Below are positions 12,836 to 23,463 of a DNA stretch of 23,848 nucleotides, piece by piece. How positions within the stretch are numbered: the stretch's first letter is position 1; every line of letters starts with the position of its first letter. A program made the position numbers and the translations under genes. Location: positions 1 through 23,848 of IMG/VR virus record IMGVR_UViG_3300013138_000045, one strand, 5' to 3'. The notes under the pieces are model-generated. The model was not told the origin of the DNA, made no database searches, and worked only from the letters and a program-made list of their open reading frames with translations. Source of the stretch: a virus.

Positions 12836-13421
12836 GATTACGTTTGTAGAGATCGAGGATGACTTTTACCTCTGCCGGAATGCTCGATTCAGAGCCATCC
12901 CAGGTGACGGAATAATCGCCGATCTTCTCACTCTTCACTCCGGGGGAGCTGGCGGTAAGAAAAGCAACTACAAGCCGCGTGGCCGCTTCTACAATGTCCG
13001 GCGGCAGGTTGGCTATCGCTGCGCCTTGGCCGGCCACGTAAGTGATGGCGATGTTCTGCTCGTCGTCGTTAAAGGCAGTTTCACTCGTGGCTATGCTTTT
13101 GAGTTTGACGATGCCCTCGGCGCCGTATATTAGAATCTCCGTTGATGCACTGATAGTGACTGCGGTTCCACCTGTCGGCGTATCCGTTAGCGCCGAAACG
13201 CTCACAATCGGCGAGTGGTCGAGCATGATTTCCCGTGTGCCATCGCCGTCATATTTTTCTGTGTAGGTCGTATTCACAAAGTTGCAGCCGCAATAGCTCT
13301 CGATGAAGCTGGAAACGCGGTCAATGGCGTTCTCAAGCTGCGTGGTTGACCAGCTCGAATTATAGCCCGGAGCGTTCTGGATATTGGTTGTGGTTGTGAT
13401 CGCGTTTGCCGCTGTACCCAT
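12825..13421 (-). CDS. Head-tail connector, gp6-like
   Basis: A 198-aa helical connector candidate. QLENAIDRVSSFIESYCGCN is the conserved first helix (sites of about residues 28-47), followed by a beta insertion (YTEKYDGDGTREIMLDHSPI) and C-terminal helices (PPDIVEAATRLVVAFLTASS ... SIPAEVKVILDLYKRNHVV). This pattern is characteristic of HK97 gp6/SPP1 gp15-like adaptors that form a ring under the portal. The ATG shares its A with the stop of the glycosyltransferase gene (TGATG). Confidence 0.85.
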   Translation of the reverse strand: MGTAANAITTTTNIQNAPGYNSSWSTTQLENAIDRVSSFIESYCGCNFVNTTYTEKYDGDGTREIMLDHSPIVSVSALTDTPTGGTAVTISASTEILIYGAEGIVKLKSIATSETAFNDDEQNIAITYVAGQGAAIANLPPDIVEAATRLVVAFLTASSPGVKSEKIGDYSVTWDGSESSIPAEVKVILDLYKRNHVV

Positions 13422-14491
13422 CAGGCCGCTACCTTTCTTGCTCGCTCAATCTCCTGCTCATAGACACGCGCCCACTTACCATAGCAAGTGAAGATGTTTC
13501 GCTTGGTGGTGACGAACCTCTGCGCCTCGCGGATTATCTTTTCCCGGCGGGAATCGTCTTTTAGATATTGAACCGCCTCGTACCATTCTTCGGGGTCATC
13601 GCCGACCAGGAGACCGTTAGCGCGATTGGTTATCGTGGTTCGGTATTGGCCGACCTTGGACGCGATAGTGGCGGCACCGGCCATTGAGTATTCGAGGAAC
13701 TTAAGATCACTCTTGCCGATATCGTTGAATGGTTCATTCACCAGCGGAACGAGCCCGATATCAAAGACACTCATGCGAAATGGATACTTTTCGTGATCGA
13801 CATAGCCTTGCGATATCACACGCTTGGCCACGCCGCCATCGGGATTTTCAAAGAGGTCCGCCGGAACGTAGCCCTGCAATTCAACCTCAAACACCTGCTC
13901 ATCTGAGAGCCGTTCGATGAGTGGTTTCACTATTCGCAAATCTTCCTTGTGGGTATGACATCCCATCCAGCCCACACAGGCATAACGCATCTCGGGGCGG
14001 CTGAACTGCCAACGAGTATTACCCACGTCGATCATGTTCGGCAATACGTAATAAGGTTTATCGAACATCTCACCGAAGTGATGCCCCAGTGATTCACAGG
14101 TTGCGGTGATCGCCGAGATATATGGCCAGACCTTTTTTTGACGCTCCCAGTTATCCCGGTTACGCTCCGGCCAGAGTTGTCCCGCTTTATCTGCGGCCAT
14201 ATCAAGCGTATCGTCAACGTCCATGATAACCGGCTTACCCATATCGCGGGCAAGTTTGAACAATTCGACGTTGGCCGGGTTGTCGCTCATCTGAGCGATG
14301 ACGGCATCACACCAGGATAGGGCGCCGAGGATGTTCTTGGCAGCTACCTTCTTATCGCCATCGGCCCTCTTTAAGAATTCATCACCGTGAGCCACTTTGG
14401 CGATACCTTTATCTTCAAGCACCCAGGCAGGATATTTGAGCCGGTAGATGCCCGAAGTGTTCTCGCGGGGGTCGAAAAGATATAGCTTCAT
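13421..14491 (-). CDS. GT4-like glycosyltransferase (GT-B fold)
   Basis: A 356-aa protein from ATG 14491 (an upstream in-frame TTG at 14497 is less likely). The first half carries MKLYLFDPRENTSGIYRL..., AVIAQMSDNPANVELFKLAR and KPVIMDVDDTLD; the second half has the GT4 nucleotide-sugar domain: YACVGWMGCHTHKEDL, FDIGLVPLVNEPFNDIGKSD, LKFLEYSMAGAATIASKVGQ, NGLLVGDDPEEWYEAVQYL. These enzymes move a sugar from a nucleotide donor to an acceptor. The gene lies inside the head module between capsid and connector, which suggests that a virion protein may be the acceptor. Acceptor and sugar are unknown. The C-terminal E-rich helix is normal. Confidence 0.85.
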   Translation of the reverse strand: MKLYLFDPRENTSGIYRLKYPAWVLEDKGIAKVAHGDEFLKRADGDKKVAAKNILGALSWCDAVIAQMSDNPANVELFKLARDMGKPVIMDVDDTLDMAADKAGQLWPERNRDNWERQKKVWPYISAITATCESLGHHFGEMFDKPYYVLPNMIDVGNTRWQFSRPEMRYACVGWMGCHTHKEDLRIVKPLIERLSDEQVFEVELQGYVPADLFENPDGGVAKRVISQGYVDHEKYPFRMSVFDIGLVPLVNEPFNDIGKSDLKFLEYSMAGAATIASKVGQYRTTITNRANGLLVGDDPEEWYEAVQYLKDDSRREKIIREAQRFVTTKRNIFTCYGKWARVYEQEIERARKVAA

Positions 14492-14504
14492 CGCCAAAAA
14501 TACT

Positions 14505-16977: not shown

Positions 16978-19755
16978 CTAGTCGATTACTGGTAAAACAG
17001 TGCAGGTGCAGTTGTGTGTTATAATGTTATCTGCCATATACCAATTCAATTTAGTGGAAAGGTTATAGACGTGGCCGCAAAAATCGACCTGCCTAACTTT
17101 GACGATCTTGTCAGCCGTTACCAGTCCGGGGAAAGCCCGCGACAGCTTGCCGAAGAATGGGGCGTCAGTCGCCCTACTATCATTCGCAAACTCTTTGCTG
17201 CCGGCGTCCAGATCAGAGGCCCGGAGGAAGCCAGCGGGGTATTCCTTGCCAGCACTACCGCTGAGTTTCGCAAGGCTCGCGTTGCCGCTGCTCATGAGGC
17301 GCGGCGAGGCGCTCGTGATAGCGTTACCGCCAAACGAAGGCGTGCCGCCACTCGCGAGGCTCGTTGCCTGCATACCAGTCCCGCTGAGAACAAGCTCACC
17401 GCCATGCTGAGACGACGGGGTCTCAGCATCACGCAACAGAAGGCTATTGATATTTACAATGTCGATATTGCCATACATGAACCTTCCATCGCCGTGGAAA
17501 TCTTCGGCGGAGGGTGGCATGGATACGGAAAACACTCCCAACGCCACGGCAGCAGACTCAAACACATTCTCGATAGCGGTTACAGTGTGGTCGAGATATG
17601 GGTCGATGGTCGCCGCTACCCGCTCGGGGTCGGAGCAGTTAATCAGATAGTCGCCCTTGCCGAGATGCTGCGCGGCGACGAATCCCTTATCAGTCAGTAT
17701 CGGATGATTCGGGGTGACGGTAGTTCTCACACCGGAAGAAGTCCTAATCTCTATGACCGGTCCTGAATAAGAGGTACGCTGCGCCTCAAGTAGACCGGGA
17801 GCAATTACCTGCGCCCCTGGGATGTAGCAATTCGGATGCGCTGGCTCAGATGACACGTCAACGCCGGGAAAGTCGTCACCGATATTCACGGTCTGCCCGT
17901 CAGCTTCTTCACATATGCCGGAAGAGCAGGGGCCGGAACCGAATATCCATTCAACCTGAGTCACATCGTTCGAGCGGTAACTCTCAAGTTGCCCATTGCC
18001 CCAGGCATTAGCCGACTCGGTGCGGGCTATCATCTCTGCCCGGTAACTTGATGCATCGGTAAAGACGCCTTGGACGCGTTTTTTCATTTCCTGATAACCT
18101 TCGCCTCCGGAGATGCCGGCGGTTATCTGGTCCTGTAACTTGGTGAGCGTGGTTGATGTAACCTGCTCGGCGAGTTTCTGACCGATCTTCCCTGCGGCTT
18201 CGATAACATAGGTATTCTCGATATCCCAGGCGATTGTGCCACCGACGAGTTGTTCCCCATTCATGGCGCCGGCTACGATGGCCGCTTTAAGCTGATCGTA
18301 AATGGCGGTATGAGTCAGCCCTTGTTCATCCATCTCGTTGAGCAGTTCGGACGCCGTGAGCTTATTCTGAAGGCTCTTGCCTACCAGTTCTGCCAGCCGC
18401 TTGAGAGCCCGCTTCATCTGATCGTCGAACAGTCCCTTCATCGCTGCTGTCATCTCATCGGCTATGGGAGTCAGCAGCCGGTCACGTGCCGCAAACGACT
18501 TCTTGACCCGTATCTTCGCCAGGGTGTCACGCTTGGCTTCCTTGCCGTGCGAGCCGCCACAGCCGCATGACTTCTCAGACTTCGCCGGCGGTACATCGAT
18601 AAAAGCATTGTTATTTCTAACTGGCGGCTCATCACCCCATGCCACTGGCTCCTGACCACGTGACTCACGCACTTCATTAATGGTGGCCAGTCCTACCTCG
18701 ATCTCTTTGACCTCACGCTCGGAGCGTTTATTTTTATCCTCAGCCAGCGCCTCTACTTGAGAGAAGTCGAACTGACAGGTAACGCCGGCGACAGTGCGCG
18801 GCAACACTTCACGGTTCAGGATCGCCGCGAGCTTGTTGCAATCGCTCTTAATGATGCCACCGTAAAACATCTTCAACTGCGCTTCGGAATTGGCATAGTT
18901 GGCATATTCGAACAGACCAACCATCGCCGGGTAACATTCCATCCCTGCAATGATCTCTTCACGTGACAGTTTAGCCTGTGCCAGAAACTCCGCGTCCTTA
19001 GGCGATAGTGCCACCGGATTTAACTTGAGCCCGCCGGTGAGGATCATCGGATTATGGGCGTTCTGATAACCGCCATGCTTCTTTCTAAGCGCCGCTTTCA
19101 ATCGTTTAATGACATCCTTGTTAGGACTGCCATCAGACTCAAGGACATAATCAGGACGGGCAGAGTTTAAAAAGAAGTTCTTGCCGTACTTGCGGATATA
19201 TTCGCCGGTGTCTATCGCCAGAGCCATCGACTCAATAGGGCTCATCCCGTACCAGTCGTTATAGGGATGCTCATACTTGGAATGAACGACCTGTTCACGG
19301 GGGAAGTCTTGTGCCTTGCCATTGACCGTATGAGTGTAGCCGATAGGCACCCTTAGCCCGGGTTTCACTGTCATGCGGTCTGTCCTCATTGGATAGATGC
19401 GACCGATGCGACTGCCGACCAGGGCAAGTTCCCAGTAAGCGTTCCCGGTAAGCGCCATGAACAGTTCCCATGACTCGATGAGATCCGTGAGGCTCATCTC
19501 TTCGTTTGGGTTTTTTAAGATCGGCGGCGTGTCAATCGGCTTACCGTTGCGGGAGAAGAGTAGCGGCACGCTTGACACTGCCTTAGCACGGGCTGAGGCA
19601 CAACGGTAGACCCACACTTCCGAGCCGTAAGTCTGCTCGAAAGCAAGATAATCCTTCGGCCTTTCGGCCCCATAGCCGCCATAACCCATAATGACATCAG
19701 GGCTGGCTTTCATGTCACCAACGGCCAGATATTTGAGGTTCTGCCAGAGGTTCAA
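16978..19755 (-). CDS. Portal-MuF fusion protein containing an intein
   Basis: A 925-aa precursor. Residues 1-390 are an HK97-type portal (KDYLAFEQTYGSEVWVYRCA, LTGNAYWELALVG, EYIRKYGKNFFLNSARPDYV, EFLAQAKLSREEIIAGMECY), through which DNA is packaged. After a SCGCGG linker, residues about 415-642 plus 916-925 are a MuF minor-head domain (SYRAEMIARTESANAWGNGQ, CSSGICEEADGQTV, final HPN|CTCTVLPVID). Residues 643-915 are an intein (see separate entry); splicing would give a 652-aa portal-MuF. The ATG overlaps the terminase stop as ATGA. Portal and MuF are more often separate genes. Because both essential head functions sit in one chain, they depend on splicing if the intein must be removed. Confidence 0.92.
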   Translation of the reverse strand: MNLWQNLKYLAVGDMKASPDVIMGYGGYGAERPKDYLAFEQTYGSEVWVYRCASARAKAVSSVPLLFSRNGKPIDTPPILKNPNEEMSLTDLIESWELFMALTGNAYWELALVGSRIGRIYPMRTDRMTVKPGLRVPIGYTHTVNGKAQDFPREQVVHSKYEHPYNDWYGMSPIESMALAIDTGEYIRKYGKNFFLNSARPDYVLESDGSPNKDVIKRLKAALRKKHGGYQNAHNPMILTGGLKLNPVALSPKDAEFLAQAKLSREEIIAGMECYPAMVGLFEYANYANSEAQLKMFYGGIIKSDCNKLAAILNREVLPRTVAGVTCQFDFSQVEALAEDKNKRSEREVKEIEVGLATINEVRESRGQEPVAWGDEPPVRNNNAFIDVPPAKSEKSCGCGGSHGKEAKRDTLAKIRVKKSFAARDRLLTPIADEMTAAMKGLFDDQMKRALKRLAELVGKSLQNKLTASELLNEMDEQGLTHTAIYDQLKAAIVAGAMNGEQLVGGTIAWDIENTYVIEAAGKIGQKLAEQVTSTTLTKLQDQITAGISGGEGYQEMKKRVQGVFTDASSYRAEMIARTESANAWGNGQLESYRSNDVTQVEWIFGSGPCSSGICEEADGQTVNIGDDFPGVDVSSEPAHPNCYIPGAQVIAPGLLEAQRTSYSGPVIEIRTSSGVRTTVTPNHPILTDKGFVAAQHLGKGDYLINCSDPERVAATIDPYLDHTVTAIENVFESAAVALGVFSVSMPPSAEDFHGDGRFMYGNIDIVNINSLLLRDAETPSSQHGGELVLSGTGMQATSLASGGTPSFGGNAITSASPRLMSSGNASLAKLSGSAGKEYPAGFLRASDLDAGSKEFANDSRATDAPFFGKLSRAFPGLVTADKIVKVRQVDFCGHVYNLSTKLNWYMADNIITHNCTCTVLPVID
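17017..17025 (+). promoter_or_regulatory. Extended -10 promoter for antisense endonuclease, inside intein block G
   Basis: The plus strand reads TGTTATAAT, a perfect TGnTATAAT extended -10. No good -35 exists at 16-18 bases upstream, as is typical for extended -10 promoters. Transcription would begin near 17032, 39 bases before the GTG at 17071. The same bases, read on the other strand, encode the end of the intein (I-I-T-H region). Confidence 0.65.
17056..17062 (+). promoter_or_regulatory. Ribosome-binding site deciding GTG 17071
   Basis: GGAAAGG lies 8 bases before the GTG at 17071, ideal spacing. It is the reverse complement of intein block F codons (around Asn898-Ser900 of the precursor). 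It favours 17071 over the upstream in-frame GTG at 17014, which lies before the proposed promoter. Confidence 0.65.
17071..17766 (+). CDS. Antisense homing endonuclease: HTH plus Vsr/DUF559-like (EDxHD) PD-(D/E)XK nuclease nested in the intein
   Basis: A 231-aa protein encoded entirely inside the intein on the opposite strand. Residues 8-48 are a helix-turn-helix (DDLVSRYQSGESPRQLAEEW, GVSRPTIIRKLFAAGV). Residues 60-102 are a basic Ala/Arg linker. Residues 103-180 are a Vsr-like PD-(D/E)XK nuclease: E106 in SPAENKL, QQKAI, D132 in YNVDIAI, E143 in VEIFGGGWH with W149-H150, then LDSGYSVVEIWV. This is the EDxHD-type arrangement seen in phage homing endonucleases. Start GTG 17071 is chosen by GGAAAGG at 17056-17062 and the extended -10 promoter. 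Its codons are in exact register with the intein's (residue r pairs with precursor residue 896-r). It is the only credible plus-strand gene here. Expected role: cutting intein-free portal-MuF alleles to drive homing. Confidence 0.9.
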   Translation: MAAKIDLPNFDDLVSRYQSGESPRQLAEEWGVSRPTIIRKLFAAGVQIRGPEEASGVFLASTTAEFRKARVAAAHEARRGARDSVTAKRRRAATREARCLHTSPAENKLTAMLRRRGLSITQQKAIDIYNVDIAIHEPSIAVEIFGGGWHGYGKHSQRHGSRLKHILDSGYSVVEIWVDGRRYPLGVGAVNQIVALAEMLRGDESLISQYRMIRGDGSSHTGRSPNLYDRS

Positions 19756-22183: not shown

Positions 22184-22951
22184 TCAAAACGGAATATCAT
22201 CCGCCGGCCCGGCTCCGACTGCGGCTTCTTCCTGCCTCCAGCCGGCTTTCTTCTTCGCTTCCTCGATCACAGCCTTTCTCTCTTCCGGGGTCATGGCGGC
22301 GTTTTTGGTCCTCTCGGCTTCCAGGGCTCTCAGTTCGGCCTCTGTTTCCTCGCGGCGATCATCTTCGGCCTGCTTCTGCTTTTCGAATTTCTCTCTGCTG
22401 GCTATCTGTCGTGGTGCTTCACCTTTAGCCCGAAGGTTCGTTCCTGCCGCTCTTGAGTTTTTGGGTATGGGTTTTTCGTCCTCACTTTCCGGTTCCCCCA
22501 CTCGTGGGGGTAAGGGGGAATGTTTAGAAACTGAAACTGAAGATGAAGACCCCCGTTTTGCTTGGGAATTTGCTTCGTCTTTGCTTGGCTTTTGCTTGGC
22601 TTTACCTCCCTTTCTACCGGCCTCGCGTCGTGATTGCCTGATTGCTTCTTCCCTGCACATGCGGCGATTATAGATAATGCCATCCTCGCTGATATTTGCT
22701 ACCCTTTTGCTCAATAATTGCTTGGCGTTTGCTTGCCATTTTGCTTCCGAGATTCCGAGCATTTGCGCGATTTCCGCATCTTTCATGGGAGTCCCGTCGG
22801 AGAAAACGAGACGCCCGCGTTGCTCAGATTCGTGCATAAAACAGAGCAACTCGTGCCAGATTCCGCGGGCCTCATAATCGAGAGATTGCACGCCGGGATC
22901 CTTGCGCCAGTCGCCAGGGTAGAATTGAAAAGCCGGGAGTTTCTCAGACAC
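22184..22951 (-). CDS. DUF1376-like phage replication protein with SSB-like C-terminal tip
   Basis: The GTG at 22951 is chosen for GGAGG six bases upstream; an ATG at 22975 overlaps that site. Residues 1-110 are the DUF1376/replisome-organiser-type winged-helix domain (KLPAFQFYPGDWRKDPGVQS, DYEARGIWHELLCFMHES, IAQMLGISEAKWQANAKQLL). A basic linker (REAGRKGGKAKQKPSKDEAN) and a long acidic/basic coiled coil (residues about 185-240) follow, and the last residues are GPADDIPF, like the C-terminal tip of single-stranded-DNA-binding proteins. Probably an origin-binding replication initiator. The gene itself contains repeat clusters that look like the origin. It overlaps the upstream Cys-rich ORF by 8 bases. 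Confidence 0.75.
   Translation of the reverse strand: MSEKLPAFQFYPGDWRKDPGVQSLDYEARGIWHELLCFMHESEQRGRLVFSDGTPMKDAEIAQMLGISEAKWQANAKQLLSKRVANISEDGIIYNRRMCREEAIRQSRREAGRKGGKAKQKPSKDEANSQAKRGSSSSVSVSKHSPLPPRVGEPESEDEKPIPKNSRAAGTNLRAKGEAPRQIASREKFEKQKQAEDDRREETEAELRALEAERTKNAAMTPEERKAVIEEAKKKAGWRQEEAAVGAGPADDIPF
22495..22768. other. Candidate replication origin inside the replication gene (iterons, A/G-rich stretch, palindrome)
   Basis: TTTGCTT (minus AAGCAAA) occurs at 22557, 22569, 22580, 22591 and, with small changes, at 22695, 22706, 22717, 22728 and 22739: steps of 12, 11, 11 and then exactly 11, 11, 11, 11. A degenerate copy is at 22762. The copies are read in different codon frames (AKQ, PSK, EAN, QAK), so the period is not due to a protein repeat. 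Beside them lie an A/G-rich 40-base stretch (22511-22550, about 62% A+T) and a 16-base palindrome (CCCCCAC-TC-GTGGGGG, 22495-22510). The order iterons, AT-rich part, palindrome matches lambda-type origins in gene O. Confidence 0.55.
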
Positions 22952-23126
22952 CTTCCACCTCCAAAAATTCATCACATTCGCGCCATTTCCGAATCTCGGT
23001 GGTCAAGTCCCATCGTCTGCACACTCGACTGGTCAGACGGCAGAAATGTACCATGCCCCCGCCTCCACAGTCACAAGGCCGGTGGTATAAATGTTGGCAA
23101 GGGTGATGTAATACGACTTGACACAT
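22944..23126 (-). CDS. Cys-rich 60-aa protein, possible zinc binding
   Basis: ATG at 23126 overlaps the upstream stop (TGATG) and the stop overlaps the replication-gene start by 8 bases, a pattern supporting a real gene. Seven Cys are present, including PCQHLYHRPCDCGGGG and FCRLTSRVCRRW, giving two possible zinc-binding pairs. No family is recognised. It could be a small DNA- or protein-binding factor. An alternative is that it is a shadow of a frameshifted methyltransferase, but the overlapping junctions argue against that. Confidence 0.45.
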   Translation of the reverse strand: MCQVVLHHPCQHLYHRPCDCGGGGMVHFCRLTSRVCRRWDLTTEIRKWRECDEFLEVEGV

Positions 23127-23440
23127 CACACTTTTAACATCTTTATCCCGTACAGCAGAGTCTTGGTTCTCATTTTGGCATCGGCGGCATCGGCGGCATA
23201 GGCGGCACGGGTGGCATCGATCTCGCGGCCATAAGGTGGGTTCATAAAAACGGTGTGGCCACCCCACGAGCGGGAAAGTCCGTCAAGTTCCTTATCGAAG
23301 AAAGTGCAGCATTTGGCGTTCTCAATGGAGGCGCAAGGGTCGAGATCGAATGTGAACTCATTATCAAGTTCATTGAATAACTCCCACGGCGTTTCCCATT
23401 CGTCAGTTTTGCTTGTTGTCAGACCGGAATTAAAGCTCAC
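23126..23440 (-). CDS. Truncated phage DNA N6-adenine methyltransferase
   Basis: A 104-aa protein matching the first half of phage Dam-like enzymes: DEWETPWELFNELDNEFTFD, LDPCASIENAKCCTFF, DGLSRSWGG and the catalytic motif NPPYGREI at about residues 68-75. These enzymes methylate adenine in DNA, often for protection from restriction. The family is usually about 150-180 aa; here the part after NPPYGREI is replaced by an Ala/Asp-rich stretch (AAYAADAADAK) from a 9-base tandem repeat and a short tail. The other frames do not continue the domain. Start GTG has AGGTG upstream. Probably inactive or reduced. Confidence 0.7.
   Translation of the reverse strand: MSFNSGLTTSKTDEWETPWELFNELDNEFTFDLDPCASIENAKCCTFFDKELDGLSRSWGGHTVFMNPPYGREIDATRAAYAADAADAKMRTKTLLYGIKMLKV
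23177..23219. repeat. 9-bp tandem repeat (GGCATCGGC), about 4.7 copies
   Basis: Units GGCATCGGC, GGCATCGGC, GGCATAGGC, GGCACGGGT and a partial GGCATCG follow one another. They lie exactly where the methyltransferase loses similarity to its family, suggesting replication slippage or a joining scar. Confidence 0.8.
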
Positions 23441-23463
23441 TTATCCACACCTTTTTCCACATG

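Follow-up and report, generated by a model that had tools for sequence, protein, structure and literature searches.

The gene at positions 22184 to 22975 on the reverse strand of the window (23,848 bases, from a virus record) encodes a predicted winged-helix phage replication initiator and probably holds the phage's origin of replication within its own sequence. We assign a probability of about 0.8 to this mechanism as a whole. The 263-residue product comprises a DUF1376-like N-terminal domain that is modeled as a winged helix, a linker, and a predicted helical C-terminal part. The gene contains a real iteron array that is maintained at the DNA level, and this phage group very probably uses it to start replication.

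In the proposed mechanism, copies of the initiator would bind iterons with an AGCAAA core that, in steps of 11 to 12 bp, share the same face of the helix. Binding would occur mostly at the array encoding the flexible linker (array 2), and the array within the domain (array 1) would form a second cluster. The resulting nucleoprotein complex might then strain or open an adjacent tract of 6-bp repeats (GTTTCA/TCTTCA), and the C-terminal part would recruit a helicase or its loader, leading to origin firing. No replicative helicase was recognized among the 12 ORFs scanned in the window. In the related locus L488, the gene next to the initiator resembles a primase-helicase by eye.

Phased repeats and the neighboring tract

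Array 1 (22695 to 22746, reverse strand) consists of five units with an AGCAA(A/T) core, whose 5' ends at 22746, 22734, 22723, 22712 and 22701 are separated by steps of 12, 11, 11 and 11 bases. Array 2 (22557 to 22597, reverse strand) consists of four exact AAGCAAA units with 5' ends at 22597, 22586, 22575 and 22563 (steps of 11, 11 and 12), and an isolated AAGCAAT unit lies on the same strand at 22641 to 22647 (5' end 22647). The exact AAGCAAA sequence is found in six units, and the remaining units differ by one base, outside GCAA. In the whole 23.8-kb window, exact AAGCAAA occurs only eight times (shuffle mean 3.03), and six of these occurrences are within the initiator gene. A search of both strands of the whole window revealed no further chains of three or more units.

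The initial annotation had reported at least nine TTTGCTT-type repeats, the reverse complement of these AGCAAA-core units, which are carried by the complement of the printed strand. It placed them in two clusters with steps of 11 to 12 bases, and this arrangement is borne out by two null models that preserve the protein, each with 20,000 shuffles. In one, codons were drawn according to the codon usage of the window; in the other, synonymous codons were permuted within the gene. The longest chain (five units) or the number of phased steps (seven) was reached in 0 of 20,000 shuffles under either null, and so in 0 of 40,000 in all. The unit count by itself is less unusual, in that 34 of 20,000 within-gene permutations give six exact units; the exceptional signal is therefore the phasing.

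Array 1 occupies the codons of residues 77 to 94, which correspond to a predicted helix at the recognition-helix position (77 to 89) and the following turn, and array 2 occupies the linker codons of residues 127 to 140. By a stricter count of exact AAGCAA units in steps of 10 to 12, the units fall in frames 0, 1 and 2 in the numbers 2, 4 and 1. The idea that the repeats are read in different frames and kept at the DNA level is upheld both by this use of all three frames and by L488, in which the same repeat encodes other residues.

The L488 protein is 61% identical to the window protein over query residues 12 to 118, and its gene has a GC content of 0.63. Both arrays are retained, with array 1 at the same position in the domain. 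The array 1 peptide is EAKWQANAKQLLSK in the window and EAEWKQTRSKLEAY in L488, with AAGCAAA units in one-turn steps that are read in other frames. Array 2 has three units in L488 and ends in a 12-bp step, as in the window, and TTCAGTTTCAGTTTC follows array 2 in both genes. A search for the same repeat in relatives with diverged protein, which had been proposed as a check, is thus positive. The companion refuting condition, related phages that keep the protein and lose the repeats, has a mixed outcome. Locus L369 is 55% identical over the domain and has a different repeat around TTAACCAAAAT; its gene lacks an AAGCAAA-type array despite the retained domain, and the type with 10- to 11-bp spacing is found in 4 of 42 DUF1376 genes.

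Next to the arrays is a 6-bp-periodic tract, TCTTCATCTTCAGTTTCAGTTTCT (22526 to 22549, reverse strand), with GTTTCA/TCTTCA units, which we propose as a candidate unwinding element. Its complement is the A/G-rich stretch that was recognized initially, and the origin-like order proposed at the same time, in which iterons are followed by a low-complexity tract, is present. The tract is 56% AT compared with 47% for the gene, and it is kept in L488. In the 54 bases after 23 of 24 arrays (one was too short), identity is 0.661 at lag 6 and 0.621 at lag 12, as opposed to 0.245 and 0.298 in controls from the same genes. Moreover, 20 serine runs in DUF1376 genes alternate TCA and TCT codons, with 97 identities at a lag of two codons (57.1 expected) and 29 between adjacent codons (66.3 expected), and none of 5000 shuffles was as extreme. 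The periodicity and the codon alternation indicate that this tract is also kept at the DNA level.

The third element of the initial annotation, the 16-bp palindrome CCCCCACTCGTGGGGG (22495 to 22510, no strand assigned), is present in the window, and a role as a conserved part of the origin is not supported. By eye, it is missing from the printed gene of L488, and the stretch folds as RNA no better than shuffled sequences (z -0.42). The palindrome was therefore set aside and is probably outside the system.

Occurrence in other phage genes

A scan of IMG/VR for three exact AAGCAAA sequences in 11-bp steps gave at least 120 stretches, and among the 120 matches listed, 107 lie within a same-strand ORF of at least 80 amino acids and 13 do not. 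These 107 proteins together with the window protein (n = 108) include 72 with DUF6291, 11 with DUF1376, and smaller numbers with DnaB_2, Lin1244_N and other domains. PHROG names assigned to subsets of the 108 include primosomal protein, replication initiation protein and DnaD-like helicase loader. With 10-bp spacing, the complete count was 114 stretches; such ORFs contain 98 of these, and most of them look like initiators by eye. The permuted motif AACAAGA yielded 17 stretches in all, with five in ORFs of at least 80 amino acids. A related core, AACCAAA, occurs in 11-bp steps in at least 120 stretches, and 78 of the 120 listed are in such ORFs, again mostly initiator-looking by eye. At 12-bp spacing there are at least 120 stretches, in which initiators are mixed with ordinary protein repeats of the AKPK type; because many matches are of this latter kind, in-frame 12-bp spacing is weak evidence by itself. 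Raw counts do not serve to compare spacings, as the 11- and 12-bp AAGCAAA scans both gave at least 120 and complete counts are those for the 10-bp spacing and the permuted motif.

A second set of loci was fetched by the N-terminal domain alone, taking the best 80 of 439 for DUF1376 and the best 80 of 411 for DUF6291, and thinned below 70% identity to 64 genes (42 DUF1376, 22 DUF6291). The commonest phased 6-mer makes at least two steps of 10 to 11 bp in 21 of the 64 genes (null 2.2) and at least three in 17 (null 0.35). The domain queries were alignments derived partly from array-bearing genes, which may inflate this prevalence, though the patterns used for retrieval do not overlap the arrays. 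Control spacings reach two steps in 0 of 64 genes at 9 bp, one at 13 to 14 bp and one at 7 to 8 bp, and the 12-bp spacing does so in 15 (null 4.4), partly because of the hexamer tract. The 10- to 11-bp signal is present in 17 of the 22 non-redundant DUF6291 genes and in 4 of the 42 DUF1376 genes; most members of the latter family carry repeats of other kinds. The winning 6-mers are AAGCAA in 12 genes, AACCAA in four and AACCCC in two. Frames 0, 1 and 2 are used about evenly, with 29, 23 and 23 units for AAGCAA and 12, 8 and 12 for AACCAA.

Among 2519 ORFs in the fetched loci that were not recognized as initiators, 107 reach at least three steps; this number was not used as a rate because the set is contaminated, with 74 of the 107 having AGCAA- or ACCAA-type kmers and several others lying antisense to arrays. 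In bacterial genomes, 53 of 116 matches with 11-bp spacing are without an ORF and are mostly perfect tandems, and under stricter ORF rules 52 of 117 strand-hits are in ORFs of at least 80 amino acids. PF07120 had no match in any of 12 bacterial genomes or in the control genomes, so this search is uninformative, and RepA_N, used as a positive control, was found in 2 of 61 genomes, too few for this purpose.

The scans also turned up further arrangements. An initiator-looking group that includes L652, L709 and L718 (N-terminus MAQRRMFSKEI...) has 11-bp AACCAAA arrays reading NQMATKWQPNG or NQMTTKPQPND, and the phasing may thus extend to further families. The loci L653, L654, L661, L678 and others carry 11-bp AACCAAA arrays without a same-strand ORF, near-identical in many viral contigs (TTTGCTAAAAAACCAAACC...); these are possibly intergenic origins or other tandem repeats. 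L366, a match to the permuted motif that by eye encodes a DnaD-like protein, has its own 11-bp repeat, and further iteron cores probably exist.

In DUF6291 genes, the iteron type is associated with a peptide that directly follows the domain. The fetched loci contain 117 distinct DUF6291 genes, of which 107 were typed and 10 dropped; this set includes loci fetched by motif, so its proportions are not prevalences. With a loose pattern, a GG-type segment follows the domain in 24 of 24 AACCAA genes, 5 of 5 AACCCC genes and 6 of 78 AAGCAA genes; with the strict pattern GG[RKA][PKR], the numbers are 24 of 24 for AACCAA and 1 of 78 for AAGCAA (AACCCC genes were left out). Both patterns were written after the sequences had been inspected, and the R-P following the GG segment can belong to the first iteron itself. 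The glycine codons vary synonymously, which points to a segment kept at the peptide level. L578 and L570 share 92% identity across 60 domain residues and have homologous DNA (82.5% over 727 bases), yet differ in both the peptide and the iteron. Among DUF1376 genes, at least two A[AC]CCCC units are present in 8 of 8 members of the KGGRP class; the GGNP class has them in 5 of 26 genes, and the remaining genes in 0 of 8. For 102 DUF6291 genes, the best tree shows 12 switches of iteron type, only three of them forced by well-supported branches. Peptide and iteron agree in all three independent DUF6291 pairs, which are too few to reach significance. The window gene is of AAGCAA type and yet encodes KGGKAK, so the rule does not cross families simply.

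It is possible, if on balance doubtful, that many phage initiators from several unrelated families share one kind of embedded origin. This would consist of iterons phased at 10 to 12 bp with few cores (AAGCAA, AACCAA or AACCCC), an adjacent unwinding tract of 6-bp repeats, and a short basic peptide immediately after the DNA-binding domain that helps to read the core: KGG[RKA] with AACCAA, KGA..G.KGGRP with AACCCC, and no such peptide in most AAGCAA genes. The peptide and the iteron type would then switch together as an exchangeable specificity cassette that gives rise to private origins. If true, this co-switching would permit direct tests of how the DNA specificity of initiators evolves and of how co-infecting replicons are kept separate.

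Proposed origin function and alternative readings

GC skew gives modest support for an origin and is confounded by transcription. In the circular phage NrS-3, the minimum of the detrended skew is at 18994, where an AACCAA array (approximately 18896 to 18986) meets AATGTA repeats; in NrS-2 it is at 18970, and because this phage is nearly identical to NrS-3, the two are not independent. The minimum lies approximately 370 bp from the phage's own repeats in GRNRAP2 and approximately 2 kb from the gene in Pam1, whose gene is without such an array. Of 42 loci, 39 have 4 kb of sequence on each side of the array, and the other three were too short to be used. An increase in skew from one side of the array to the other is seen in 32 of the 39, and a local minimum is found within 500 bp in 11, with 4.9 expected. 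Compared with positions chosen at random from the same sequences, these 39 loci show no significant effect (median rank 0.33, KS p 0.08), and GC skew was rejected as proof of an origin because it is too weak. Cumulative GC skew had been suggested initially as a check on the full genome; on the window, it is featureless to the window end.

Several alternatives to an origin were considered. The repeats might be a regulatory or packaging site, such as an operator, or a pac site close to the gene for the small terminase (about 21.2 kb). Initiator autoregulation is common, and a terS-like ORF (HTH_Tnp_1, below the cut-off) and terL are situated 0.7 to 3.2 kb downstream of the window initiator. However, the arrays of other phages, as far as they were read by eye, are in initiators and not in terminase genes, and the neighboring hexamer tract and the skew minima better suit an origin, so this alternative appears unlikely. 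It is highly improbable that the repeats are a by-product of a low-complexity linker peptide rich in Lys, Gln, Ser and Ala. The linker is indeed rich in K, Q, S, A and N, and some protein repeats, those of the AKPK type, do contain 12-bp arrays read in frame, but the phasing is lost in synonymous shuffles that keep the peptide, AAGCAA units in the domain-first set are spread about evenly over the three frames, and in L488 the repeat is retained as DNA although it encodes other residues. A neutral 11-bp minisatellite generated by slippage is the least credible reading: intergenic perfect tandems exist, and 35 of the 53 ORF-less arrays in bacterial genomes have identical spacers, but spacers differ in 87 of the 107 in-ORF viral arrays among the matches listed, the same motifs recur in unrelated initiators, and the permuted motif is rare (17 stretches). 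The shuffles, the use of frames and the differing spacers led us to set aside both the linker-peptide and the minisatellite explanations, and an origin embedded in the initiator gene is the reading that we prefer.

Other features of the window were also identified. A perfect DnaA box, TTATCCACA, is located at 23441 and is followed by TTTTCCACA at 23453 (together 23441 to 23461); the two are 12 bp apart and approximately 470 bp upstream of the initiator gene. An ORF at 23126 to 23440 (reverse strand) encodes a Dam-type methylase that covers only positions 3 to 79 of a 169-position profile; because its end enters a GCC-rich repeat, this ORF may have been shortened by truncation or by a frameshift. 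In a single ORF of 925 amino acids (16978 to 19755, reverse strand), a portal domain (PF04860, 5e-60) is joined to a Mu-F-like head domain (PF04233) and to a segment with a match to Intein_splicing (PF14890, 1.6e-8, slightly below the cut-off); the product thus appears to be a portal-MuF fusion with an intein-like insert. A group-1 glycosyltransferase gene (PF13692, 1.7e-8) is found among the head genes at 13421 to 14497 (reverse strand).

The predicted initiator and known systems

The window protein matches the PHROG families "replisome organizer" (6.5e-12) and "primosomal protein" (1.7e-6). Its score against Pfam PF07120 (DUF1376; E 0.001, 19.8 bits) is below the gathering cut-off of 30.1 bits, and we label it DUF1376-like because it is also approximately 50 to 61% identical to several loci found with an alignment of the DUF1376-like N-terminal domain. 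With these matches and a modeled winged helix, the earlier assignment of a DUF1376-like product is supported. A structure model built with 44 aligned sequences has a block-mean pLDDT of 94 to 98 over approximately residues 31 to 110, and the order of predicted elements (helices at 34 to 49, 66 to 73 and 77 to 89, short strands, and a helix at 104 to 121) is that of a winged helix. The nearest solved folds to the modeled domain are 4pql (Z 8.1, rmsd 2.6, 82 residues), the "Rep-DNA complex" 5kbj (Z 7.8, rmsd 9.3) and the "initiator" 4pt7 (Z 7.7, rmsd 3.0), with 82 to 83 residues aligned for 4pql and 4pt7; both 5kbj and 4pt7 are initiators of plasmids. Many other winged helices score Z of about 7, and the Foldseek E-values are weak (best 1.4e-3). 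Winged helices are common, and a Z near 8 may reflect a shared arrangement alone. A sequence search of solved structures gave no match for the window protein, a profile search gave weak helix-turn-helix matches (best E 0.01), and the DUF6291 model had no solved structural match (all E 2.9 or worse).

In-gene origins are already known from lambda O and the RepA_N plasmids. What is new here is a short core, phased at one turn and with few variants, that recurs across families of "unknown function"; the placement of an array in the codons of a DNA-binding helix, as judged from the model; and the coupling to a peptide. DUF1376 and DUF6291, both of "unknown function" in Pfam, thereby gain a concrete and testable role as origin-binding initiators. 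Out-of-frame phasing provides a way to detect in-gene origins without experiments, and the origin becomes findable from sequence alone in very many uncultured phages. In the literature searched, with subscription journals mostly outside it, there is no report of iterons in DUF1376 or DUF6291 genes, and "AAGCAAA" and "iteron" do not appear together.

The initial annotation described the system as Lambda-O-like. This is apt for the way of working and, as far as the fold comparison goes, not for ancestry: among solved structures, RepA_N plasmid initiators come closest to the modeled domain. In lambda, the iterons number 4 to 6 and are longer than 7-bp cores; the window, in contrast, has 7-bp AAGCAAA cores in steps of 11 to 12 bp, and its neighboring tract is a 6-bp repeat that is only 56% AT. 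The window protein does not match the lambda O family in Pfam or PHROGs at 1e-3, and the PHROG name "replication initiation O-like" applies to 5 of the 108 proteins comprising the scan matches listed and the window. The lambda origin lies in the middle of the O gene and comprises iterons bound by the O product, followed by an AT-rich unwinding tract (PMC7466680). The likeness is in the repeats, which are kept at the DNA level within the initiator gene in the window as well.

The N-terminal domain of DnaD is a winged-helix relative that appears in the Foldseek list for the window domain (2vn2). The DnaD domain is reported as not binding DNA (PMC7145576), whereas DNA binding is proposed for the window domain. 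The same source describes RepA_N iterons as semi-palindromic, with inverted sub-repeats (PMC7145576), and the window repeats differ in being short direct repeats. The window protein has no Pfam match to RepA_N (PF06970) at 1e-3.

The RepA_N initiators, exemplified by pSK41 and pTZ2162 RepA, nevertheless resemble the window system in having a winged-helix N-terminal domain, predicted by the model in the window, and an origin central in the gene, proposed as such in the window. One source places the pSK41 origin centrally in rep, where the N-terminal domain binds four boxes, states that the part of the protein encoded by the origin is a dispensable linker, and presents pPR9 as a natural chimera in which the N-terminal domain and the origin have been swapped (PMC5703833). 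Membership of the lambda O or the RepA_N family is not claimed; by analogy, the window system would work like lambda O and pSK41 rep.
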